Shown: one piece after another, positions 1 to 21,059 of the stretch | Position numbering within the stretch: position 1 is the first letter of the stretch | Layout: each line of letters starts with the position of its first letter | Origin: a virus | Virus record (IMG/VR): IMGVR_UViG_3300028800_001835 | Coordinates: 1-21,934 of that record | Length of the DNA: 21,934 nucleotides | Direction: 5' to 3' (one strand) | Translations under genes and position numbers: made by a program | Notes under the pieces: model-generated | What the model was told of the DNA's origin: nothing | The model's database searches: none | What the model saw: only the letters and a program-made list of their open reading frames with translations

Positions 1-159
1 GCCGTAACGTTGGCTACCGAAGCCTCGAACGGCACCCTCAACACGACACAGGATGCAGCGGCGAACCAGGAGTACCAGTCGATTCTGTCGGAGATCAACG
101 ACATCGGATCGACGACCACTTACAACAAGAACCAGGTCTTCTGTGGCTGCCGGAATTAA
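1..159 (+). pseudogene. Flagellin N-terminal fragment, interrupted by the prophage end
   Basis: Frame 1 of the plus strand is open from the window edge and encodes a segment with the pattern ATEASNGTLNTTQDAAANQE, then a stretch with SEINDIGSTTTYN and NQVF. This matches the conserved N-terminal helical domain of flagellins, in particular the run ending in a threonine-rich turn, YN and a VF/LF pair. After the Phe codon at 139-141 the match stops. The frame then reads six unrelated residues (CGCRN and a TAA at 157-159) inside the repeat array. The gene would have made the filament subunit of the host flagellum. Its start lies off the left edge and its remainder must lie beyond the far end of the prophage. 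The family call rests on my reading of a 47-residue fragment and is moderately secure; the disruption itself is directly visible. Confidence 0.62.
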
Positions 160-170
160 ACTGCACTGGT
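150..170 (+). repeat. End repeat copy 1 (putative transposase-binding site)
   Basis: This copy contains the core GGAATTAAACTGCACTGGT. It differs from the inverted third copy at one position only, G152 in place of A. It lies eight bases inside the proposed prophage terminus, which is close to where the outermost MuA site sits relative to the end of Mu DNA. The repeat is directly visible; its function as a transposase site is inferred. Confidence 0.6.
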
Positions 171-172
171 TC

Positions 173-193
173 CCAGAATTAAGCTGCACCACC
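173..193 (+). repeat. End repeat copy 2 (putative transposase-binding site)
   Basis: This is a direct repeat of copy 1 on the same strand, with the core AGAATTAAGCTGCACC. It diverges at an internal G (base 183) and in its last few bases. It starts 23 bases after copy 1, about two helical turns, which would place both sites on one face of the DNA. Confidence 0.6.
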
Positions 194-211
194 AGTGCAG
201 TTTAATTCTGG
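191..211 (-). repeat. End repeat copy 3, inverted (putative transposase-binding site)
   Basis: On the minus strand this reads with the core AGAATTAAACTGCACTGGT and is nearly identical to copy 1. It overlaps the degenerate end of copy 2 by three bases and faces the opposite way. Copies 1 and 3 therefore form a long inverted repeat around copy 2. Confidence 0.6.
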
Positions 212-355
212 TATTCCATTTTTAGTAGATTCTAGAGATCGCCCGCAACAGGCCCCCAGAAATACCCTCAAAATCCCCTAAAACCACCCCAAAAACCACC
301 GCCCGATCTCACCTTATATAAGGGGTCGTTTTGATCCCTGAAAACCAGGCCGCTT
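212..355. other. Non-coding end segment with phased C-runs and a palindrome
   Basis: No gene is seen between the repeat array and the last tail gene. The plus strand carries C-runs at 253-257, 265-267, 275-278 and 287-290, spaced 10-12 bases apart in A-rich sequence; on the minus strand these are G-runs that could in principle form a four-tract quadruplex with loops of 7-8 bases. A perfect 12-bp palindrome, CCTTATATAAGG, lies at 312-323. A short stem with the arms CCTG and CAGG lies just after the stop of the tail gene. No convincing intrinsic terminator for the tail operon is seen. Confidence 0.45.
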
Positions 356-3300
356 TTACCCCGTGAAGACGGTCGTTCCGCCCGCCTCGATCGTGACCGT
401 TCCGCCTGGCATCGACGCCGACAAGGCGAACATCGCGTTGACCACCACCGTGGCCGATCCGGTCGCCGTTCCATCCGCCGTACTCGTCGCCGTGATCGTG
501 TGCGTTCCAACCTGAAGCGGCGAGGTGTAGTTCCCTGCTGAGTCGATGGTGCCCACCGTCGCGCTGCCGCCTGGGACACCATCCACGCTCCAGGTAACCG
601 TGGTTGTTGGGTTGCCTGTTACCGTCGCCGTCAGCTGGATCGTCACACCCATCGGGATAAGTGAAGACGCCGGCGAGACGCTAACCACGGTGGGCGGAGC
701 AGCAGCCGAGAGACCGTAGATGCAGAGGACGTCCGCGCTGCTCGCCCAGATGTCGCCTGAGCCGTCGTTGAACGTGCAGTGCACCATATCTTCTGCGTCA
801 ACGTAGCAGCTGCCCACTCCCTGCGCATGACCGCCTCCCGATGTATAAAACGAGGCGTCTGTAGGCGCGCACATGATGCTGAGCGTGTCAGCAATGTTCG
901 TGACCGCGCTGGACGGCAGCGCGACCGTGCTGCCATTTCCAATGTTTTTGATACAGCCGAGGCCGAAGGTGCTGCCATCCGTCAGCGGAAAAGCGATCCA
1001 GGTCTCTGCCCCGAGCGTCTCGGTGGTGACCGTGCCCATATTGTTTTTCCACGCAAAAACCAGCACAGATGCGTTGCCGGTCCAGACGTTGCCGACGTGA
1101 TCCTGGCACTCGCAGGAAACGACGAGGTTGCCGCCCACCAGGTTCACCGCGGCGCCCGCCAGATACATGATGTTTGCGCTCGCCGGCATATCGTGGATGA
1201 AGGCCAGTGCAAAGCACTGTGCCGTTGTCCACCCAGCCGGCAGCTCAACCGTTCCGCCGTGTGCGACGATGCCCTGGCCGAAGAGAATCTCCTCGCCACC
1301 CAGCAGCGTCAGCGGCAGCCAGGTCATTCCTGCGCCGTCCGTGCTGGTGACGTCCGCGCTGAGCCAGGTGAGCGCGGCATAGTTCGCATCGCCACCCCAC
1401 GTCTGGCCTGGATCGCCGGCGTAGACCAGCGTCAGCAGGCGGCTCACATCCGTGCTGCACTGCTGCACGGTGTGCGCCGAGGAGTACTGAGTATTCGCGC
1501 CCGCCGGCGATGCCCACGCCATCAGGTTATTCGCGGGGTAGCCGGTCGACGGAAGCTGGAAGATTGAGCCCGAATAAAGCTGCCCAGCGAAGAAGACGAA
1601 GTTGCCGCCGTCAGCCAGCGGGATCGCGGTGAAGGAGAAGTCGTTGCCCGGCTCGCTATCCGGAACGCTGGGCCATCCGGCCGCGGTCAGGTCGCTGGTT
1701 TCGTACATGTAGCCTTCGTTGTATGGCTGCAGCATCAGCTCAATTAACCCGCTGCTATCGGACGGGGTGCGCGCGAGGCCCTTGTTTGGGGAAGCGAGTT
1801 CGCACGCCGGCGGCGTCTTCGTCAGGTTATCGAGCACCTCATAATCGGCCGTGTAGGGATAGCGGAAGGTGTTGTCCAGTGTCACGCGATCGCCGCACTC
1901 GATGCCCGCAGCCAGCTGGCCGTTCACATCCTTGGCGAAGAAGTTGGTGCGGAACTTGAACCGCGGGGGTGTGATGTAAGCAGACTGATCGAAGCCCAGG
2001 TTGCGATCGCGCTCATAGCGGCAGAGGCGGCTGACCTGGTCGTACGTCGAGGTTCCAAAATCGAGCGCGTCCTTCAGCTTGTTCCGCTGCCGCGCAATGT
2101 TCAGGCCCTTCGCGCCGCGCGCCAGCATATTGTTCTTGTGCCAAAACTCGGGCACGCGCTCCTTGAAGCGCGAGTAGAGCAGTCCCACCGCGCCGCCGGC
2201 GCCCACCGTGGTGGGGTAGTTGTTCCCCTTGCGCGCGATGGTGAAGGTGGTGGGATCGACCTCGTCCGGGGTGCCCGGATTGAGGATGGCCGGAACAGAA
2301 GAGACGGTCCACTCGCCGTCGTAGACCGTGCCCGTGCCACCCATCGAGATCGCGTCGCCTTGCTGAAATGGATGCGGCTGCGGCTCGCCGGTGGGCGGGA
2401 TCGAGTCTGTCGTCACCGTCGGATCGCCATGCACGGGGTTGGTGATGCTCAGGATGTTATTGCACGCCGGCACCAGCAGATCGCGGAAGCCGCCGAGTAT
2501 GCGGTTGCCCGCGGTGTTCAGCACCTGGTCAGAAGGCTCGAACGAGCCGGGCATCATGTGATCGCGCGAGAAGATAAAAACCGAGGCGCGCGGCATATCG
2601 CAGATGGCGGCGATCTTGCCCTGCGAATCCTGTTTGTAGGCACGCGCGCAGCGCAGAATCTTGGTGGTGATGGCCTGCACCGACGATGCCGACGTGTAGC
2701 TGTTGTCATGCGTGAAGCGCGGCCGGCCGTTGGCCAGCAGCTGGTTGCAGTACTGCGCGGAGTCGTAGATCGGCTCCCAGTCAAAGCGCGCACTCACGGC
2801 CGCAGGAAGCGGATCCGGGCCGACGTTGTAGATGAGGTTGTAGTCCGGAAAGAGCTCACGGCGCAGGTAGACATCGACCCAGTGCCAGATCGGGTTGCGC
2901 GTCCAGGCGTAGCCGATGACGTTGCCGTTGGCGTCGAAGATGCGGCAGCGCAGCGCGCGCCACAGGCCGATGGGGTTGACGTCGGTCCACTGCGAGGGGT
3001 CGCCCTGGTTGTTGTTCTGCTGGTACAGAATGGCCTGTTTGCGCATGATCGCGTAGTAGGCGATCCGCGACCAACACAGCGGCTGGATGGCGGGCGGAAA
3101 GACAGACCAGAGTGTGTCGCAGCCCTGATCCGGGCCAGTGGAGTGCGGCGCCAGGCCGGAGCCGATGACCGCGTCGCAGCCGGAGTGGAAGTGCCACACC
3201 AGATTCTGTGTCGTCGAGTCCAGCGTCTGGTACCAGTCCCAGCCCATCCAGCTACCGGCGCCCCCGGCCGCGAGCTGCGGGTTGCCCCGCCATGAGAGAA

Positions 3301-3517
3301 CGTCGTCGATCCATAACTCCTGCAGGCCATCCCACTCGCCGTGCCCCAGCTTCCAGAAACCGGCGCGCGTGTAGTCCAGCGCAGCCGTGCCGGTGTCCTG
3401 CAGCATGTAATAGGCCTCGCGCTTGCCTGTGGCCCAGACATAGCCATAGCTCAACGGTATCGGCTGGCCGGTGGTCTCGCACGCGCTGGAGGACTGGGTT
3501 GAGCTGGCGTTGGGCAT
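356..3517 (-). CDS. Central tail fibre / tip protein with tandem modules and C-terminal Ig-like domain
   Basis: A 1053-residue protein, last gene of the tail operon and probably the distal tip that contacts the host surface. The N-terminal half (about 1-600) has a start typical of tip proteins of B3-like siphophages: PIPLSYGYVWATGKR near residue 18, then a WIDDVLSW segment. Residues about 624-727, 728-835 and 836-939 look like three diverged copies of one module of about 105 residues. Shared features are a W/F-x-x-PL start, a TV-LP or F-QLP core and, in the second and third, a C-x-D-x-G-x-W and VL end. Residues 940-1028 form a bacterial Ig-like (Big_2-type) domain with TWSVDG, VGTI and NYTSP. 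The ATG overlaps the preceding TGA by one base, with GGAG six bases upstream. Function is inferred from position and length. Confidence 0.8.
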   Translation of the reverse strand: MPNASSTQSSSACETTGQPIPLSYGYVWATGKREAYYMLQDTGTAALDYTRAGFWKLGHGEWDGLQELWIDDVLSWRGNPQLAAGGAGSWMGWDWYQTLDSTTQNLVWHFHSGCDAVIGSGLAPHSTGPDQGCDTLWSVFPPAIQPLCWSRIAYYAIMRKQAILYQQNNNQGDPSQWTDVNPIGLWRALRCRIFDANGNVIGYAWTRNPIWHWVDVYLRRELFPDYNLIYNVGPDPLPAAVSARFDWEPIYDSAQYCNQLLANGRPRFTHDNSYTSASSVQAITTKILRCARAYKQDSQGKIAAICDMPRASVFIFSRDHMMPGSFEPSDQVLNTAGNRILGGFRDLLVPACNNILSITNPVHGDPTVTTDSIPPTGEPQPHPFQQGDAISMGGTGTVYDGEWTVSSVPAILNPGTPDEVDPTTFTIARKGNNYPTTVGAGGAVGLLYSRFKERVPEFWHKNNMLARGAKGLNIARQRNKLKDALDFGTSTYDQVSRLCRYERDRNLGFDQSAYITPPRFKFRTNFFAKDVNGQLAAGIECGDRVTLDNTFRYPYTADYEVLDNLTKTPPACELASPNKGLARTPSDSSGLIELMLQPYNEGYMYETSDLTAAGWPSVPDSEPGNDFSFTAIPLADGGNFVFFAGQLYSGSIFQLPSTGYPANNLMAWASPAGANTQYSSAHTVQQCSTDVSRLLTLVYAGDPGQTWGGDANYAALTWLSADVTSTDGAGMTWLPLTLLGGEEILFGQGIVAHGGTVELPAGWTTAQCFALAFIHDMPASANIMYLAGAAVNLVGGNLVVSCECQDHVGNVWTGNASVLVFAWKNNMGTVTTETLGAETWIAFPLTDGSTFGLGCIKNIGNGSTVALPSSAVTNIADTLSIMCAPTDASFYTSGGGHAQGVGSCYVDAEDMVHCTFNDGSGDIWASSADVLCIYGLSAAAPPTVVSVSPASSLIPMGVTIQLTATVTGNPTTTVTWSVDGVPGGSATVGTIDSAGNYTSPLQVGTHTITATSTADGTATGSATVVVNAMFALSASMPGGTVTIEAGGTTVFTG

Positions 3518-4176: not shown

Positions 4177-5012
4177 CGCATCACCTCCAGCGAGTGCCAG
4201 CTGATGGTGGGCGCGGTGGCTGAGGCGTTCTTGGCGGCGCTGACGTTGACCTGCACGCGGTGGAAGTCCAGTGACACATTCTGCTGCATCAGCACCATCT
4301 GCGGGCCTTCGTCGACCGCGGCGTAGCAGTCGATGGTGCCGCCCACCTCGTTTCCGTCCAGCGATACAGTGCACTGACCGAACTCCGGACCTTTCATTAG
4401 GTAGAGTTTGAAGCCGTAGCCTTTGTACTCGTAGCAGCCCCAGTCGCCGGCGTTGCCCGCGGCGCCGGGGTTGTCCATGGTGGTCACCGCGATGCCGGCG
4501 ATAGACCGCGCGTTCGGCGCCCAGCCCGGCATGGCATTGCTCAGCACCGCCAGCTTCTGATCGCCAAAGTCATTGAAGGCGTAGACGCGGATCGCGTCGT
4601 GATCCCAGTCGTCGGGGTACTTCACCATGGCGACTTCAGGCATTTCCTCAAAGGTGAGGTTCTGGACGTTCCACATCCCGTTGCCAACCTGCACCATGGG
4701 GAAGTCGCCGGTGAAGCGGCCGACAAAGTGGCGGCCGCCGCCGTCCCAGTCGATGATGGTGAAGAAGCCGTCCTCATACCGCTCGTAGTACCACTTCAGC
4801 CTCTGCACGCAGAGCCACGAACGCTGAATCCAGGAGAGCGGGAAACTGTGCCCGGTATTCTGGGTATCGCGCGTCCAGGGCGTGGAACCCACCGGCTTCA
4901 CCGCCAGCTTGGTATTGGCGCGCCGGCGCGCAAAGCCATAATCGGGACACATCGAGTCCTGCAGCGCTTCCTGCCAGTCAGCGGTGGGGTTCAGGATGTC
5001 AGAAGCCGGCAT
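4173..5012 (-). CDS. Tail tip / distal tail protein, hypothetical
   Basis: A 279-residue protein immediately after the tape measure, where siphophages encode the distal tail protein. I placed the start at the ATG at 5012-5010 because GGAGG lies five bases upstream. The ATG at 5036 has no ribosome-binding site and would add only eight residues inside the tape-measure gene. The protein is rich in Trp and aromatic residues, with DWDGGGRHFVGRF and FEEMPEVAM segments in the first half. A beta-rich second half could be a carbohydrate-binding-type sandwich (FKLYLMKGPEFG, then TVSLDGNEVGG). It overlaps the tape measure by 14 bases, so translation is probably coupled. I do not recognise the family beyond its position. 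Confidence 0.7.
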   Translation of the reverse strand: MPASDILNPTADWQEALQDSMCPDYGFARRRANTKLAVKPVGSTPWTRDTQNTGHSFPLSWIQRSWLCVQRLKWYYERYEDGFFTIIDWDGGGRHFVGRFTGDFPMVQVGNGMWNVQNLTFEEMPEVAMVKYPDDWDHDAIRVYAFNDFGDQKLAVLSNAMPGWAPNARSIAGIAVTTMDNPGAAGNAGDWGCYEYKGYGFKLYLMKGPEFGQCTVSLDGNEVGGTIDCYAAVDEGPQMVLMQQNVSLDFHRVQVNVSAAKNASATAPTISWHSLEVMR

Positions 5013-13155: not shown

Positions 13156-14211
13156 CTAGCCCTCGATGTTGCCGGGGACAATTCCCATCGTCGGGGCCGT
13201 GACGGCGTTGAGGATGGGCAGCCCGGTCTCCTGCGCGGTGACCTTCAGCCCGTAATACCAGTCGGCAGACTGCCAATAGGTCTTCCTGGAGAGATGGGCG
13301 TCGATCCATTCCAGGACCGCGAAGCCATCCGCGCCCGCGGCGACCATACCCTTGTCGATGCCGCCATCCTGCGCGCCCGTCCAGCTGAAAGTCTTGATGC
13401 AGCTCAGATCCTCCATGCTCGACGTCGCCTGTGCGTAGCCCAGGAAGGCATGGTTACCCCAAACCCACGACTCAACATTGTTCTGGCTCAGCGAGACCGC
13501 ACTGGCCTGCACGCACTTGACGCGGAAGACACTGGTCAGATCGTCGAGGGTGATGGCGCCAGCCTGTGTGTACTTAAACCGGATGATGACGTCCGGATGC
13601 GACTGCAGGGCCACGACGACGGGATCGGACAAAATCAGCACCATCTCCGAGTCGGAGATGCCGGCCTGGCGAAGCAGAGCCTTGTACTGGTTTACCTGGG
13701 TGATGGGGTGCGAGCCATCAGACGATCCGCCACCCCCCTCGCCATCCGCCGCGGTCGGATACGCATCCCACATCGAGGTTCCCGAGAGGGTCACGCCGTT
13801 CGGGAAGTTCGAGGTGCTCAGCGCAGTCGCTGCGATCTCGATTTCACGAGCCAGGTTTAGGCGCTTGGTCAAGCTGGCCGCCGCCTTCTGCCGCGCCGAA
13901 AAGCCCAGGCCAAGGCCGTACGCTTCGCTCTCAAACGGAATGCTCGTATCGAGCGCGTGCGACCGGCAGAAGTACGTGTCGGTCGAATAGGTGCGCCGGA
14001 TCGACTGAGGGGCGTCGCCGGGCGCGCGGTTCGTGTTCACCGCGCGGAAGTCGTCGCGTCCCCACACAACATACGGGAAGCTCTGCCTGTCCACAGGAAC
14101 TCGCGGTGCAATCAGATCGCCAACAAACAGATTGTTGCGGTATTCCTTGGCGAAGTTCGAGAGCGCCACATTCGGAAAACCCGCCGGCGCCAGACCAACA
14201 TAACTGCCCAT
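13156..14211 (-). CDS. Major capsid protein
   Basis: A 351-residue protein, most likely of the HK97 fold. Its place after the protease/scaffold and decoration genes and before the connector genes is that of the major head subunit. The N-terminus has YRNNLFVGDLIAPRVPVDRQ and a following WGRDDFRAVNTNRAPGD segment, the type of opening seen in capsid proteins that grip their neighbours. A Gly/Ser-rich loop (GEGGGGSSDGS) interrupts the middle, and LILSDPVVVALQSHPDV and SVFRVKCVQASAV suggest the core domains. The ATG has a strong GGAGGT six bases upstream, and a terminator follows. The identity rests on context plus overall pattern. Confidence 0.85.
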   Translation of the reverse strand: MGSYVGLAPAGFPNVALSNFAKEYRNNLFVGDLIAPRVPVDRQSFPYVVWGRDDFRAVNTNRAPGDAPQSIRRTYSTDTYFCRSHALDTSIPFESEAYGLGLGFSARQKAAASLTKRLNLAREIEIAATALSTSNFPNGVTLSGTSMWDAYPTAADGEGGGGSSDGSHPITQVNQYKALLRQAGISDSEMVLILSDPVVVALQSHPDVIIRFKYTQAGAITLDDLTSVFRVKCVQASAVSLSQNNVESWVWGNHAFLGYAQATSSMEDLSCIKTFSWTGAQDGGIDKGMVAAGADGFAVLEWIDAHLSRKTYWQSADWYYGLKVTAQETGLPILNAVTAPTMGIVPGNIEG

Positions 14212-15158: not shown

Positions 15159-15779
15159 CTAGACAGCGCCCGCGTGCGCGCTACCGGGCACCGTCAGCTC
15201 CGGCTGCTCTGCGGCCACTTCGCTCAGCGCCTCGCCAAAGCTGATCTTCTTCTCCGCCGCGCGGGCCTTCGCCAGGTCCGTCAGTGGATCGCCCGTACCC
15301 TTGCGGCGACCGCCTTCGGGTGCGGCCGCCGCCATGCGTCCGCTCGGAACCATCTTGGGCAGCCCTTCCAGGAACTGCACCAGTATCTCCAGTGGAGCGA
15401 CCTTCTTCTTCGCATCGCCCTCGCCGAACTCGATGGTCGTGGAGAGCTTGGCCAGCTCGTCGAACACCAGGGGCAGCCCCTGCTTCTCAAACGCTGGAAC
15501 CCAGTGGCCCGAACCCTTCAGCTTGACCACAGCCTCCGCGGCGCGCTGGCGCGTCTCGCCCTGGGCAATGGCCGACTCGCGCTCGGCAAACTTCGTGGAC
15601 TGCTCGGTGAGCTGCGTTTTCAGCGTCGTCACCTGCTCCTGCAGCGGCTTCGTGGCTGACTCGATTGCCTTAGTCACAATCGACTGCACGGCGGATTCAC
15701 TGAACTCCGCAGGCGCCTTCTTGCCGTTGAAGAGCTCCGCGAAGAACTCCGCGATCTGTTCCTTGATGGTTTTGTCCAC
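15159..15779 (-). CDS. Nested scaffold protein made from an internal GTG (Mu gpZ-like)
   Basis: Inside the protease gene and in the same frame, a GTG at 15779-15777 is preceded by a perfect AGGAGG (15790-15785) at a five-base spacing. Initiation there would yield a 206-residue protein starting VDKTIKEQIAEFF and comprising only the C-terminal part: a coiled-coil segment (KPLQEQVTTLKTQLTEQS) and the end domain. Mu (I/Z) and lambda (C/Nu3) make their scaffolds in just this way, from an in-frame start within the protease gene. The ribosome-binding site and frame are visible; use of the start is inferred. Confidence 0.65.
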   Translation of the reverse strand: MDKTIKEQIAEFFAELFNGKKAPAEFSESAVQSIVTKAIESATKPLQEQVTTLKTQLTEQSTKFAERESAIAQGETRQRAAEAVVKLKGSGHWVPAFEKQGLPLVFDELAKLSTTIEFGEGDAKKKVAPLEILVQFLEGLPKMVPSGRMAAAAPEGGRRKGTGDPLTDLAKARAAEKKISFGEALSEVAAEQPELTVPGSAHAGAV

Positions 15780-16496
15780 TGTTTCCTCCTGCGCGAACTC
15801 GAATTCGACGAACTCGCGATCAGCATCGTTGAAATTGAAATCCTTGAGACCCTTGACGGCGGGCGGCTGCGCGCCGAGCCACGCCACATGGCGCAGGCCG
15901 CTGATGTTGCCGGCGGCGTCGCGGTAGAACGCGGCGCTGCGCTTCTTGAACTTGCGCGCCTTGCGCAGCTCGGCAAACTGCGGATCGACGTCCTTTTCCT
16001 TGGCCAGCAGCACGTCGCCGCTCAACTTGAGGCGGTCGATCCAGCCATAGGCCGGCAGATTGTCAGCAGGATGCCCGATGCACTCGGGCGCTTCGTGATA
16101 GTCGGGATCGTAGTCGTTGACGACGCGCACCAGATCGTCGCGGGTGACCTTCGCCTTACCCTGGCCGGTATAGTCACCGGCGCGGAAGATCTCAATCCAG
16201 CCGCCGTCATAATTGTGGCCGTCGGCGTGCTCATCAGACTTCACGTACTTGTCTTCAAATCGCTTCACCTTATCGCCGTCGACGCCGTGCTGGCGCGCAG
16301 CGGATGCAATCTTGCGCGCGGCCGCCTGCTTCTGCGCGGCTGAACCATGGGTCTCATGCCCGAACAGATCGAGCGCTGAGCCGACATGGTCCTCGTCGAT
16401 CGGCAGATGCCACTGCGACGTGTCTTCGGGATCAAGCACCATCGCAAACTTTTCCGCGGGCAGCGCCTTACCGTCAACTGTCTTGGTCTTAGCCAC
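15159..16496 (-). CDS. Capsid maturation protease with C-terminal scaffold (Mu gpI-like)
   Basis: A 445-residue protein. I chose the GTG at 16496-16494, because AAGGAG lies 11 bases upstream and the 28 codons before it, back to an ATG at 16580, contain TTA and AGA and lack a ribosome-binding site. Residues 15-75 resemble the short DUF6582 domain of phage proteins (PEDTSQWHLPIDEDH, then QAAARKIASAARQHGVD). Residues 98-215 look like the Mu-I-type head protease, with ECIGHPADNLPAYGWIDRL (His142), a KKRSAAFY segment (Ser187) and LRHVAWLGAQPPAV. The rest is a coiled-coil-rich scaffold. It would guide prohead assembly and then cleave the scaffold. The catalytic residues are my assignment by pattern. 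Confidence 0.75.
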   Translation of the reverse strand: MAKTKTVDGKALPAEKFAMVLDPEDTSQWHLPIDEDHVGSALDLFGHETHGSAAQKQAAARKIASAARQHGVDGDKVKRFEDKYVKSDEHADGHNYDGGWIEIFRAGDYTGQGKAKVTRDDLVRVVNDYDPDYHEAPECIGHPADNLPAYGWIDRLKLSGDVLLAKEKDVDPQFAELRKARKFKKRSAAFYRDAAGNISGLRHVAWLGAQPPAVKGLKDFNFNDADREFVEFEFAQEETVDKTIKEQIAEFFAELFNGKKAPAEFSESAVQSIVTKAIESATKPLQEQVTTLKTQLTEQSTKFAERESAIAQGETRQRAAEAVVKLKGSGHWVPAFEKQGLPLVFDELAKLSTTIEFGEGDAKKKVAPLEILVQFLEGLPKMVPSGRMAAAAPEGGRRKGTGDPLTDLAKARAAEKKISFGEALSEVAAEQPELTVPGSAHAGAV

Positions 16497-16584
16497 GGGA
16501 TGAGTCTCTCCTTTCGTTCTTAAGTAGCGGGCCGAACTTCGCCGGGATGCCGAGAACTGCGAAATCGCCGCGTAATTCATGCGC

Positions 16585-17430
16585 TCAGGCCGCGTGCATC
16601 AGTGTGTAGAAACCAGGCTGAGGCACATAGATGCGCGCCAGCATGGGTAGCCGTTCCATTCCTCCTTCGCTGGCGTTTGGATTGAGTTTCAGCGCTTCAT
16701 CCTCAGTGATCGGCACCACCGAGCAGCGGCAGTTGAAGCCGCTGGGTGGATAGATCCTGCGCCATACCGGATCGATGGCGCGAGCGATGAACTGGTCGAG
16801 TACCGCGTGCTCCGGCCGCACACGATTGTCGCCTACCGTCCAGTACTGCCAGAAGGGCAGCGCCTCCACAATGTGCGGCTGCTGCATCTGTACCAGGCGC
16901 CCGGAGGAGTAGGCCTTCTGCATGGCCGTCTGGAAGGCGGTGTCCAGCGTGAAGGAGTTCAGGTTGGCCACGCCGGCTTCCGTGGTCAGCTTGTCCACGG
17001 CCGCGCGCCAGTCCGCCGCCGTCTCGCCGGTGCGCGCCGTCTCCGCCAGTGCGTCGCGGATCTTCTGGATCAGCCGCACGTCCGCCACGCCGGCCAGGGT
17101 GAAGGCATCGTTGCGGTACTGTGCCGTCAGCCCGTCAAAAACGGCGCGGGTGACCGGCGTGAGCTGCCCGATCAGCCGCGCCGAGCGATCGTCCGGCAGA
17201 TCGAAAGAGAAGCCTGCTACGCCTGTTTGGTCGTTGTTTGCTTCGTCAAAATGTACAGAATGACCGCTCTCCGCGATCGGCAGCAAGCGCCAGGTCTTCT
17301 TATACGCGTGACGCACGATCTGCATGCGGCCCAGCAGGTCGGCCGAGGCCAGGCGCCGCGCCAGCATGTCACCCAGCTTGCGCTGCAGCTCGGTGTCGCG
17401 CGGAGCCGGCAGATGGAAGCCCAGCGCCAC
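16585..17430 (-). CDS. Minor head protein, Mu gpF / SPP1 gp7 family
   Basis: A 281-residue protein of the phage head morphogenesis family (SPP1 gp7-like, Mu gpF/gp30). The family hallmark is present near the C-terminus: VRPEHAVLD at about 204-212, followed at 227-236 by YPPSGFNCRC with the paired cysteines and then SVVPI. A few copies enter each prohead with the portal and help DNA packaging or ejection. The start is a GTG that overlaps the portal TAG by one base, with GAGGT at a normal distance upstream. Its position directly after the portal matches Mu. Confidence 0.88.
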   Translation of the reverse strand: MALGFHLPAPRDTELQRKLGDMLARRLASADLLGRMQIVRHAYKKTWRLLPIAESGHSVHFDEANNDQTGVAGFSFDLPDDRSARLIGQLTPVTRAVFDGLTAQYRNDAFTLAGVADVRLIQKIRDALAETARTGETAADWRAAVDKLTTEAGVANLNSFTLDTAFQTAMQKAYSSGRLVQMQQPHIVEALPFWQYWTVGDNRVRPEHAVLDQFIARAIDPVWRRIYPPSGFNCRCSVVPITEDEALKLNPNASEGGMERLPMLARIYVPQPGFYTLMHAA

Positions 17431-18890
17431 TACGACCTCACCACAGGCGTCACCTGGCCAAGCACCTCATGCACGCGCTCTTTCAGGATGCCCGTGGCGT
17501 CCACCTTGAGCGCATCGAACATCCTGTCGAACTCCGTCAGCTCGCGCTCAATGGCAGCCGGCGGCTCGGCAAAGGTGGCGCGCGCCTGGTCGTTGATGCC
17601 CACGTTGGGAGCGGAGATATTCGGCGCCAGAATGTCTTCCGGACTCTCGCCGTTTTCGCCGGCGGCCAGCGGCACGCCGTACCGATCCACAATGTAGCCC
17701 ACGGTGAACTTCTTGCCCATGCGCTGCAGCCCCGCATCGATGGCGAGGCGCTCGACAAGGTTTTCATTCGGCTCAATGTCGATCGCGAGCTTGGGCACCG
17801 GCGCGCCCGGGCCGAAGTTCCACAGGACCAACGGCTGGATCAGCTGCTTGTTGATGACCCGCATCGCCAGCCGCGCCAGATAGACGCCACGGTTTTCCAG
17901 CGTGTCGGCGTGCGTCTGTCCCTGCGCGTTCGATCCCTTGCCGCCTTCGTTGCCGAAGGTGGTCAGCGTCTCGCCCTGGATGCGCCGCGTGATGGCATAC
18001 TGCATCAGCGTGTAGAACTCCTTGTACACATCGGGGTTCTGCGAACGCGCAATCTTCAGCAGTTCTACCTCGATCTCCATGGTCTTCGGCACGCCGATCG
18101 CAACGGAGTCCACGATCGCCTGCGCCAGGGCCGCCGCCTTCTGCTTCTCCTGCTCGCTGTCGGCGTCGTTGTATTTCACGACCGCGGTGCCGGGCCCCTT
18201 CTCCGCGTACTTCACCCACAACCGCTCCATGTTGCGCTTGAACCAGCTCGGCCAGAAGACGTCCTTCAGCAGTGGACGCCCCATGCGGTTGCGCGCGCGC
18301 TTGCGATAGGTGGTGATGAGGAACTTGTTCGCCGGCGCTTCCACGCCGTCGGAGGCGAAGGGATTGTTGAGATACTGCAGCGGCCCGGTCTGCGGCCGGA
18401 AGCGGTTACCGAAGAGGAACAGCTCCTGCGGGCAATCGTCGATCGAGGTCAGCGCGGCCTGCCCTCCGCTCACGTCGAACATCAGCTCCTGCACGCTAAA
18501 GCCGTAGCCGGCCGCGTCCAGGATGCAGTCCAGCACATTTTCAAAATCGACATTCTCAAGCTGCTGCTCGATGAACTCTTTCGTATCTACGGCCGCGCTG
18601 TCCGTCTCATTGGCGGGTTGCACGCTGCGCGCCCGCTTGCTTACCTCGTACTTCAGCGTGTCCAGTGCGCTTGAGACGTCCTCATCCTTTGCCTCCAGCT
18701 CGCGGTAGTAGCCCATGGTGAACGGCGTGTTGTACTGCATCGCCGCCCAGATGCTGGTGGGGTTGCGCGTGCCGCCGAAGGCCAGCGTATTGCGATAGAG
18801 CGAGACCTCGGTGAGGTAGAGCGCCTGCTCCGATACCACAGGTCCACGCGGTGGCAGCGCGGGAACGGCTTGATCTTTTTCTTCATCCAT
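17430..18890 (-). CDS. Portal protein (DUF935, Mu gp29-like)
   Basis: A 486-residue portal of the DUF935 family. It forms the ring at one head vertex through which DNA enters and leaves. Recognisable segments are YYRELEAKDEDVSSALDTLK, the GYGFSVQELMF region, the FRPQTGPLQYL segment, RNRMGRPLLKDVFWPSWFK, QNPDVYKEFYTLMQYAITR and the Thr/Gly-rich GETLTTFGNEGGKGSNAQGQ. The last lies before the long helix that ends in the conserved VINKQLIQPLVLWNFG. An ATG at 18890 and a GTG one codon earlier could both serve; a GGAAGGA upstream sits eight or five bases away respectively. The ATG overlaps the terminase TGA by one base. Confidence 0.92.
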   Translation of the reverse strand: MDEEKDQAVPALPPRGPVVSEQALYLTEVSLYRNTLAFGGTRNPTSIWAAMQYNTPFTMGYYRELEAKDEDVSSALDTLKYEVSKRARSVQPANETDSAAVDTKEFIEQQLENVDFENVLDCILDAAGYGFSVQELMFDVSGGQAALTSIDDCPQELFLFGNRFRPQTGPLQYLNNPFASDGVEAPANKFLITTYRKRARNRMGRPLLKDVFWPSWFKRNMERLWVKYAEKGPGTAVVKYNDADSEQEKQKAAALAQAIVDSVAIGVPKTMEIEVELLKIARSQNPDVYKEFYTLMQYAITRRIQGETLTTFGNEGGKGSNAQGQTHADTLENRGVYLARLAMRVINKQLIQPLVLWNFGPGAPVPKLAIDIEPNENLVERLAIDAGLQRMGKKFTVGYIVDRYGVPLAAGENGESPEDILAPNISAPNVGINDQARATFAEPPAAIERELTEFDRMFDALKVDATGILKERVHEVLGQVTPVVRS

Positions 18891-20356
18891 CACAGGATTC
18901 CTTCCAGTTGCGTAAATGAGGGGGCCACGCTGGAGGGCGTGGCGTCGAGCGCGAGCGTCCCCTCGTCCGCTGCCAGATCGGAGAGAGCCTTGGCCCAGAA
19001 TGCGTCCGCGTGCGCGTACAGCTTTTTCTTCTGGCCGCCGGCGACGGCGGTGTCCACCTCGATGCGCGGCGCGTCGAAGGTGACGCCGGTCGACGTGGCC
19101 TGGCGCTTGATGGCCATCAGCTCCGTCCGGAGCCTCCCATCGTAGGGGATGCGCGAGCGCTGCCGTTCCAGCCGCTTCTTGATGCGGATGGCAAGATCGG
19201 TCTTCATGCGTATCCCGTTGTCGTTGGTTCCGCTGAAGCTGACCCCCAGCACGCGACCGGGGTTTGCCTCTTCGAGCGAGTCGAACAGACCCACGCCCAT
19301 GCCGGTCTTATCGATGGCGCCGCGGCTGCACTGGCGCACCACTGGCTGCACGATGCGGAATTGGTTCGGGAAGCTGATGTTGTGCAGCCACGCCACCAGG
19401 CGCGTCACGGCCACGTCGCCGATCTGCGCGTCCACCCACAGGCAGGTGGCGTCGTGATCGCGCGCCACGTCCATGCCGAAGGTGTGCCGGTAACGCGGAT
19501 CCAGCACCACGTCTCGAAGCGCGGTGACTGGCGAGTTGACATCCAGATGCACGAGCTGCGCGTCGAGGGAGGCTTCCTCGCAGCTCGCGACCAGGTCCAG
19601 CGGCAGCCACGCTCCGCTGGACTTGAGGAAGATGCAGCAGAATTCCTGGTTCCAGGTGTCCTCGTCGTTCAGGCCGCGGCGCATTCCCTCAATGTCGATC
19701 GGGCAGCCCTCGGCCACCGCGCGATAGACATCGACCCAGTGCCCGGACCAGCCGTCTTTCCTGACCGGCAACTCCGCCGGCGCGACGCCCATGTCCAGGC
19801 CTAGATTGCGCGCGATGTCGAAGAACTTGCCCTGCTCGCCGTTCGGCGTAGAGAGCACTTCCAGCGAGTTGCCCAGCGCCACCTGGCGGAAGACGGCCGC
19901 GAAGATGGCGTAGCTGTCTTCCTGGTGGCCAAACTCATCCAGCACCGCGTCGCCGGGGTAGCCGCGGGCCGTGCGGGGGTTGGCCGGCAGCGCGATGGTG
20001 CGGCTGCCGTTGGGAAACGTGATCTTGCTTTGGATGGCCTCAATGCGCCCGATCGCATCGACGAAGTCTTCGTTGGCGATCATCTGCGCCGTGCCCCCCA
20101 TCAGCTGGCACAGCTTGGCCGCGGTCTCGACGAACTCCACCGACTGCGCCTTCGACGCGGAGAGCACGGTGGTGGTGCGGCCGGGGACGCGCATCGACAT
20201 CTCGACGCGCCGGTAGGCGGTGGCGAAGCTGTAGCCGATGCGCGCGGACTTAACCGCGCACTTGAACCGGGCGTCGTCGTCGATCCAGCGCTGCTGGTAC
20301 GACCGCATCTGCAACACGGCCGGCATGCGGATCTCGTGATCGAGGACCTCAATCAT
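18890..20356 (-). CDS. Terminase large subunit (Mu gp28-like)
   Basis: A 488-residue motor ATPase/nuclease that packages DNA into the head. The start is the ATG at 20356; the open frame runs 43 codons further up only as a shadow of the small terminase gene, and AGGTGG lies seven bases before the ATG. The ATPase domain shows the deviant Walker A KSARIGYS (36-43), Walker B VLDEFG with D140/E141, and STPNG (169-173). DEDTWNQEFCCIF (231-243) leads to an RNase-H-like nuclease domain with candidate acidic residues D296 (TFGMDVARD), D349 (AIDKTGMG) and D451 (HADAFWAKAL). All expected motifs are present, so it looks intact. It overlaps the small subunit by eight bases. Confidence 0.93.
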   Translation of the reverse strand: MIEVLDHEIRMPAVLQMRSYQQRWIDDDARFKCAVKSARIGYSFATAYRRVEMSMRVPGRTTTVLSASKAQSVEFVETAAKLCQLMGGTAQMIANEDFVDAIGRIEAIQSKITFPNGSRTIALPANPRTARGYPGDAVLDEFGHQEDSYAIFAAVFRQVALGNSLEVLSTPNGEQGKFFDIARNLGLDMGVAPAELPVRKDGWSGHWVDVYRAVAEGCPIDIEGMRRGLNDEDTWNQEFCCIFLKSSGAWLPLDLVASCEEASLDAQLVHLDVNSPVTALRDVVLDPRYRHTFGMDVARDHDATCLWVDAQIGDVAVTRLVAWLHNISFPNQFRIVQPVVRQCSRGAIDKTGMGVGLFDSLEEANPGRVLGVSFSGTNDNGIRMKTDLAIRIKKRLERQRSRIPYDGRLRTELMAIKRQATSTGVTFDAPRIEVDTAVAGGQKKKLYAHADAFWAKALSDLAADEGTLALDATPSSVAPSFTQLEGIL

Positions 20357-21059
20357 GCGGCGCCACCTGAAGCGGCGGCAGCCCGAAGGTGCGCTCCCGC
20401 AGCAGGTTGATGTCGTCGATGGAGAACTGCCCGGCACCCTTCCGCGCGGCCTGCTGGGTGGTCTCGTCCACGGCCCGGCGGGCATTGCGCTCGCGCTCTT
20501 CCAGCAGCGTGATCTTGCGCTGGTCCACTTCCACGCGCCGCGCCTGCAGCTCCACGCGCTGCATGCGGCTCATGGCCAGCGTCAAGTCCTTCAGCCCTTT
20601 TGCGAACTTATCCTTGTCGCCGATGCCCGCGCTTTGGATCAGACCGAACATCTGATCCCGCAGCGCGTTGATGACGGCCGAGTTTGCACCCTCAAGATTC
20701 TGTCCGACAAAAGCCGCGGCGAACTCGCGCGCCTGTGCGCTCTCCGCCAGCACCTGCTTGCGCGCCTGGTTCCAGCGCAGATCGAACCAGCGGTGCAGCG
20801 TACTCTTCGGCAGCTTCATTTCCGGAAAGTGTTCCAGCACCTTCAGGTCGAGCTTTTCCCAGTCAATGAAGCCCTGATCGTAATCCGTCGCCCACTTCTC
20901 GCCGTACGGCCGTCCGGACTGCTCCTGCATCTCCATCCAGGTGCGCCCTTGCTTGTAGAGATGCACGATCGCATCCTGAACGCCCTGCGGCAGCAGGTCG
21001 ATCTTGAGCGGCTGATGCGTCACCCGCGGCTCTCCCGTCTTGGGCCTGGGCCTGGTCAC
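20349..21059 (-). CDS. Terminase small subunit (DUF3486, Mu gp27-like)
   Basis: A 236-residue protein of the DUF3486 / Mu gp27 family, the DNA-recognition partner of the large terminase. After a basic N-terminus come LPQGVQDAIVHLYKQGRTW and PKSTLHRWFDLRWNQ, helix-turn-helix-like segments that fit the family pattern 'LP...R..l...l..g..s'. A long helical, charged middle part (DLTLAMSRMQRVELQARRVE, then a basic heptad-like stretch) could drive oligomer formation. The C-terminus has the conserved LRERTFGLPP. The start is a GTG in a GTGA overlap with the gene before it, and GGAG lies five bases upstream. Confidence 0.87.
   Translation of the reverse strand: MTRPRPKTGEPRVTHQPLKIDLLPQGVQDAIVHLYKQGRTWMEMQEQSGRPYGEKWATDYDQGFIDWEKLDLKVLEHFPEMKLPKSTLHRWFDLRWNQARKQVLAESAQAREFAAAFVGQNLEGANSAVINALRDQMFGLIQSAGIGDKDKFAKGLKDLTLAMSRMQRVELQARRVEVDQRKITLLEERERNARRAVDETTQQAARKGAGQFSIDDINLLRERTFGLPPLQVAPHD

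Follow-up and report, generated by a model that had tools for sequence, protein, structure and literature searches.

Candidate transposase-binding sites at the right end of a Mu-like prophage inserted in a flagellin gene, and their covariation with a transposase helix

Phage Mu and its relatives have clusters of MuA-binding sites, each about 22 bp long, at both ends, and here we analysed a set of short repeats at the end of a viral genome fragment. We consider it about 95% probable that the segment is the attR of a Mu-like transposable prophage, with two direct repeats (R1 and R2) and one inverted repeat (R3) as candidate sites for a MuA/TnsB-type DDE transposase encoded by the phage itself. 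The window, a 21,934-bp IMG/VR contig, breaks off within the phage and keeps its structural half; the transposase gene and the second phage end both lie off the contig. The proposal of the earlier note, that repeats at a prophage terminus are candidate transposase-binding sites, is nonetheless strongly supported, as far as sequence comparison can tell, by the Mu-like genes, the break in a flagellin gene, sites at both ends of related phages, target duplications and a DDE transposase in those relatives. That the enzyme binds these sites, what R3 contributes and which transposase the phage in the window encodes are what we infer from these data.

A prophage terminus with three repeats

The window opens with a fragment of a host flagellin gene (Table 1), whose reading frame is open exactly up to position 141 and is cut by the insertion at 141/142. 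Because the fragment ends exactly at the TG of 142, we place the prophage terminus on the structural side at this position, which is the right end in Mu terms (attR), as the Mu-type structural genes run towards position 1. The five bases preceding it (137-141, TCTTC) are the expected copy of a target duplication, of which the window, having only one phage end, holds one side. Judged from their domain matches, the structural genes (portal, gpF, head protease and major head) are of Mu type and mark the element as a putative Mu-like transposable phage. The protein encoded nearest the terminus has 22 full or partial homologues adjoining right ends in IMG/VR; it also carries a C-terminal Ig-like domain match (PF13927, below cut-off), and local tandem DNA repeats occur within its gene around 453-493.

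Table 1. Features of the window (positions 1 to 21,934)
Feature	Position	Strand	Remarks
Host flagellin gene fragment	1..141	+	47 codons in frame; PF00669 Flagellin_N, E=2.6e-6, above curated cut-off
Prophage right terminus	142..149	+	TGTGGCTG; TGTGGC (one TGTAGC) opens the right end in 25 relatives
Site R1	150..170	+	hexamer CTGCAC at 161-166
Site R2, direct	173..193	+	23-bp period from R1; hexamer CTGCAC at 184-189
Site R3, inverted	191..211	-	hexamer at 195-200, 5 bp from R2 hexamer
AT-rich motif adjoining R3	213..228	+	ATTCCATTTTTAGTAG; kept in many relatives
Structural gene nearest the end; tail / host-specificity type protein	356..3517	-	PHROG 1727, weak, E=1.3e-4
Major head protein	13156..14211	-	PHROG 1005
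Head maturation protease	15159..16580	-	PHROG 976
Mu gpF-like head protein	16585..17430	-	PF04233, E=1e-15
Mu-type portal protein	17430..18893	-	PF06074, E=5e-71
Terminase large subunit	18890..20485	-	PF17289/PF03237; PHROGs
Mu gp27-like protein, weak	20349..21059	-	PF11985, 26.8 vs cut-off 28 bits

The earlier note had described two direct copies and one inverted copy beginning eight bases inside the TG, all of which the sequence bears out, R3 being 95% complementary to R1. It had also given a common core, which is indeed present in all three copies (153-166, 176-189 and, on the minus strand, 195-208) but has to be corrected to GAATTAAnCTGCAC, since G, not A, precedes it in the first copy. 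When the layout was scored as two direct copies 21-24 bp apart plus one inverted copy (maximum 34), the prophage end reached 31, and the best position elsewhere in the window 25; when the whole window was randomised 100 times with an order-1 Markov model, no score exceeded 25 (mean 23.2). The repeats are therefore not a product of chance. The core has no further copy in the window at 0 or 1 mismatch, and its absence from the far edge is uninformative because the contig stops there inside the phage.

Ends and transposases of related phages

Terminase and tail-protein searches gathered approximately 100 viral loci. In a scan of genomes, most of the close relatives belonged to MAGs of Acidobacteriaceae, and a search through 397 genomes of the order yielded transposase relatives in 24. 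One locus whose terminase is 73% related (L316, CAIWPS010000403.1) comes from a MAG labelled as a beta proteobacterium, reflecting either another host or a binning error. In searches by the sites themselves, the tandem pattern of the window's own site word had no match in IMG/VR, a single 14-mer gave 112 matches, mostly expected by chance, and a spaced-site pattern returned two contigs, both already among the known relatives.

A TG(T) terminus followed by two direct sites, 22-24 bp apart, was found at 25 other right ends. The inverted R3 is clear at 23 of these, weak in G141 and absent in G453, with 2-5 bp between the R2 and R3 hexamers; the ends of G471 and G153, which are without a clear inverted site, are less certain. 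Just inside R3, an AT-rich motif (ATTCCATTTTTCATAG) recurs with 0-4 mismatches in 18 of the 25 relatives, and several phages have a palindrome related to it (CTATGAAAAATCATAG) approximately 345 bp in from the left end; the motif is possibly a host-factor site.

The left, transposase-side end was located in 13 relatives, where a TGTG terminus is followed by a site L1 at +10 and a direct L2, the L1-L2 distance falling into two classes (104-108 or 115-117 bp) that differ by roughly one helical turn. A consistent L3 was not detected at these 13 left ends, where a degenerate one could escape detection. The termini have the form TG...CA, the window holding the right one at 142 and the relatives both. 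Moreover, 5-bp target duplications bracket 12 relatives (G007, G023, G048, G050; G168, G120, G141, G088, G139; G455, G456, G464), the left terminus having been found through the expected duplication beside a TG in six of them and through site matching or geometry first in the other six; the six duplication-guided termini were accepted because an L1 site follows. G007 has two overlapping TGTG positions, and its duplication, GCTTG, was read from the sequence. By contrast, G013 has both phage ends with host-like flanks and no matching 5-bp duplication (GAGGC versus GGCAG), perhaps because it represents a mixed assembly or packaged phage DNA. In elements with a computed length, the whole phage inside the 5-bp duplication measures 38.5-43.3 kb. 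G168 is a 42,743-bp element within a 6.27-Mb contig and carries the window's hexamer, CTGCAC, at R1, R2, L1 and L2.

As for the recombinase, a Mu-transpos_C match was present in 30 of 45 related viral records, most of the remaining ones being short. In three transposases scanned, rve exceeded the cut-off in two and the MuA I-gamma domain in one; TnsB proteins were the only matches of the transposase profile among PDB sequences, and the Mu transpososome 4fcy was the best match to a fold model whose confidence is modest (mean pLDDT 70, pTM 0.38). The recombinase of the relatives is thus a MuA/TnsB-type DDE transposase. The earlier note had looked to the opposite end and to the recombinase type, an integrase or a motif missing there being what would speak against it; in the relatives, sites are present at both ends and the enzyme is of the DDE type.

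Several further features of these elements were observed. Complete relatives, G007 and G168 among them, have their transposase gene approximately 8-10 kb in from the left end, towards which it points, in the direction opposite to that of the structural genes. The transposases of G007, G012, G050, L373 and L416 have an extra N-terminal HTH-like segment, perhaps the counterpart of the MuA enhancer-binding domain, while those of G003, G013, G017, G023 and G048 begin directly before domain I-beta; the end layout is the same with or without this segment. The left part of G017 (L165) contains a long hexanucleotide array of GCCGTA/GCCGGA (approximately 4274-4514).

Known systems and alternative readings

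Scanned with its own consensus, the Mu record (AF083977) has R1 at +8, R2 at +30 and an inverted R3 at 57-75, with L1 at +8, L2 at +113 and L3 at +153 on the left. The phages described here thus resemble Mu in the direct R1/R2 pair (22 bp apart in Mu, 22-24 here) with an inverted R3, in an L1 near the terminus with a direct L2 further in (by 105 bp in Mu, 104-117 here), and in the TG termini, the 5-bp target duplications and the fold of the transposase. Since Mu itself combines direct R1/R2 with an inverted R3, the topology is canonical, and the suggestion that the inverted third copy makes for a distinctive transpososome architecture was dropped. The differences from Mu are of detail: R3 is about 5 bp closer (an R2-R3 gap of 2-5 bp against 10 bp), L3 was detected in Mu but not at the relatives' left ends, the site words vary between phages and are unrelated to the MuA consensus (TTTCAnTnnAAnnnCGAAA), and the MuA gene points inward whereas the relatives' transposase gene points to the left end.

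Other transposable phages were also compared. For the Pseudomonas Mu-like PaMx73/H70 group, TGT termini were reported, each with three putative 22-bp sites nearby (PMC4378225), but there R1 is described as inverted relative to R2 and R3, the sites lie at 4, 46 and 93 bp, and the left end has three of them (PMC4378225). Burkholderia phage KS10, which gave the best coverage among cultured-phage matches to the G168 transposase (25% identity), was described with two putative sites per end (PMC2628397), with neither a third inverted site nor a target duplication reported (PMC2628397). In Leptospira transposable prophages, the transposase was modelled as MuA-like and short target duplications flank the element (PMC8705779); however, these duplications are of 6 bp, and some of the ends are TA-TA (PMC8705779). 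What we describe are Mu-like phage sites in a little-studied host group, with a layout that was already known.

The repeats could also have nothing to do with transposition. Lying downstream of the last structural gene and forming a 17-nt inverted repeat that is 94% complementary around a 5-nt loop, R2 and R3 might be read as a transcription terminator of the late operon. The stem is AT-rich, however, and no T run follows it in the operon direction; such a reading, which we regard as very improbable, would also fail to account for R1 as a direct copy, for sites at the opposite end, for the fixed distance from the terminus in 25 phages and for the covariation with the transposase helix described below. 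Equally improbable is that a phage repressor uses the repeats as its operators. Phage operators are likewise short repeated words, and a different word is repeated inside the left end of several relatives: in G013, G023, G048, G050, G120, G141, G168, G455 and G464, 3-5 copies of a phage-specific word occur in both orientations approximately 120-700 bp inside that end, in the form ATCCAA or ATCCAG with a variable tail (ATCCAACGGAAC, ATCCAACGCAAC, ATCCAACCCAAC, ATCCAAGTGCCA, ATCCAAGCGACA). These words, which also diversify between phages, may be repressor operators or a Mu-like enhancer. Yet they differ from the repeats and are confined to the left region, whereas the repeats lie at a constant distance from each terminus, even on the structural-gene side, where an early promoter is unexpected, and their hexamer covaries with the transposase.

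Some IS families also have TG ends and repeats, and the end could in principle belong to an insertion sequence that landed by chance beside phage genes. This we hold to be the least probable reading of all, because the 5-bp duplication encloses the whole 38.5-43.3-kb phage where both ends are known, and the same end structure recurs on many phages at different insertion sites. Transposase sites at the attR of a Mu-like prophage remain the reading that we prefer.

Covariation of the site word with the recognition helix

Each site consists of an outer half (often AATTA) and, after two intervening bases, a hexamer that occupies bp 20-25 of the end. This hexamer is conserved within each phage and varies among phages (TGTCAC, TTGCAC, CTGCAC, TTACAG, TGAGAG and others) together with a transposase helix of the form T-[ILV]-a-x-W. 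An R at x, the position of R81 in ShTnsB, is associated with G at base 2 of the hexamer, and other residues with T; K or L at a is associated with C as the last base, and W or Y with G. In addition, R or K at the position of ShTnsB R77 goes with C at base 4, a post hoc and weak association.

In the first 22 phages, x predicts base 2 with no exception and a predicts the last base with one; in nine further phages, whose ends were located via the repeat geometry, the prediction held for base 2 in 8 of 9 and for the last base in all 7 of the cases to which the rule applies. For all 31 phages, the tables are 17/0/1/13 for base 2 (Fisher p = 7e-8) and 18/0/1/10 for the last base (p = 5e-7), values to be read with the caveat that the rule had been noticed before it was tested, that the phages are few and some of them related, and that Fisher tests take no account of relatedness. 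The exceptions are G455 at base 2 (S with G) and L416 at the last base (Y with C). Within this sample, G452 is a near twin of G022, the last base differs between sites in G451 and G455 and was assigned by hand, and several site words were taken from one phage end only. When the helix segment was left out of the transposase tree, the separate contrasts on it all agree (6/6 and 7/7). Moreover, an unguided scan of 615 alignment columns ranked x (G017 residue 156) top for base 2 (6.8e-8, the next column 4.3e-5) and a (residue 155) top for the last base (9.2e-7, the next 8.6e-4), with residue 152 tied for top at base 4; in the alignment with ShTnsB, residues 152 and 156 fall on R77 and R81.

The ShTnsB structures show two residues of the I-beta (NTD1) helix, R77 and R81, making base contacts in the major groove (PMC9527255, PMC9371665). 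The ShCAST TnsB (PDB 7svw, 8aa5, 8rdu) resembles the system described here in its sites of about 22 bp and in the alignment of these two residues with the covarying ones, and differs in belonging to a CRISPR-associated transposon with four sites per end. The I-beta contacts of ShCAST were judged perhaps not strong in end recognition (PMC9371665); by contrast, the phages described here each conserve an I-beta hexamer that covaries with the helix.

These observations suggest a division of labour. The catalytic domain would act on the TG at the terminus, the outer half of each site (about bp 9-18) would be recognised by domain I-gamma together with the linker, and the hexamer would be read by the I-beta helix-turn-helix. 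The right-end sites and the two direct left-end sites would then assemble a complex for nicking the two ends of the phage and joining these to the target, leaving the 5-bp duplication. A simple I-beta helix code, comprising the rules for base 2, base 4 and the last base, and repeated switches of end specificity through helix changes are, on the sequence comparisons, a probable account of this covariation. As both the window and G168 use CTGCAC, the window's own transposase is predicted to have a helix like that of G168, R-T-L-K-T-W.

The covariation between site word and recognition helix appears to be the new part of this work; the open-access literature that we searched held no account of Acidobacteria transposable phages or of such a code. 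For this phage group, found mainly in Acidobacteriaceae, the ends are now mapped and approximately thirty natural transposase/site pairs are available. If the code holds, the end specificity of MuA/TnsB-type transposases would be predictable from sequence, which bears on how related transposons keep independent of each other; domain I-beta would also prove able to determine specificity, contrary to what was suggested for ShCAST.
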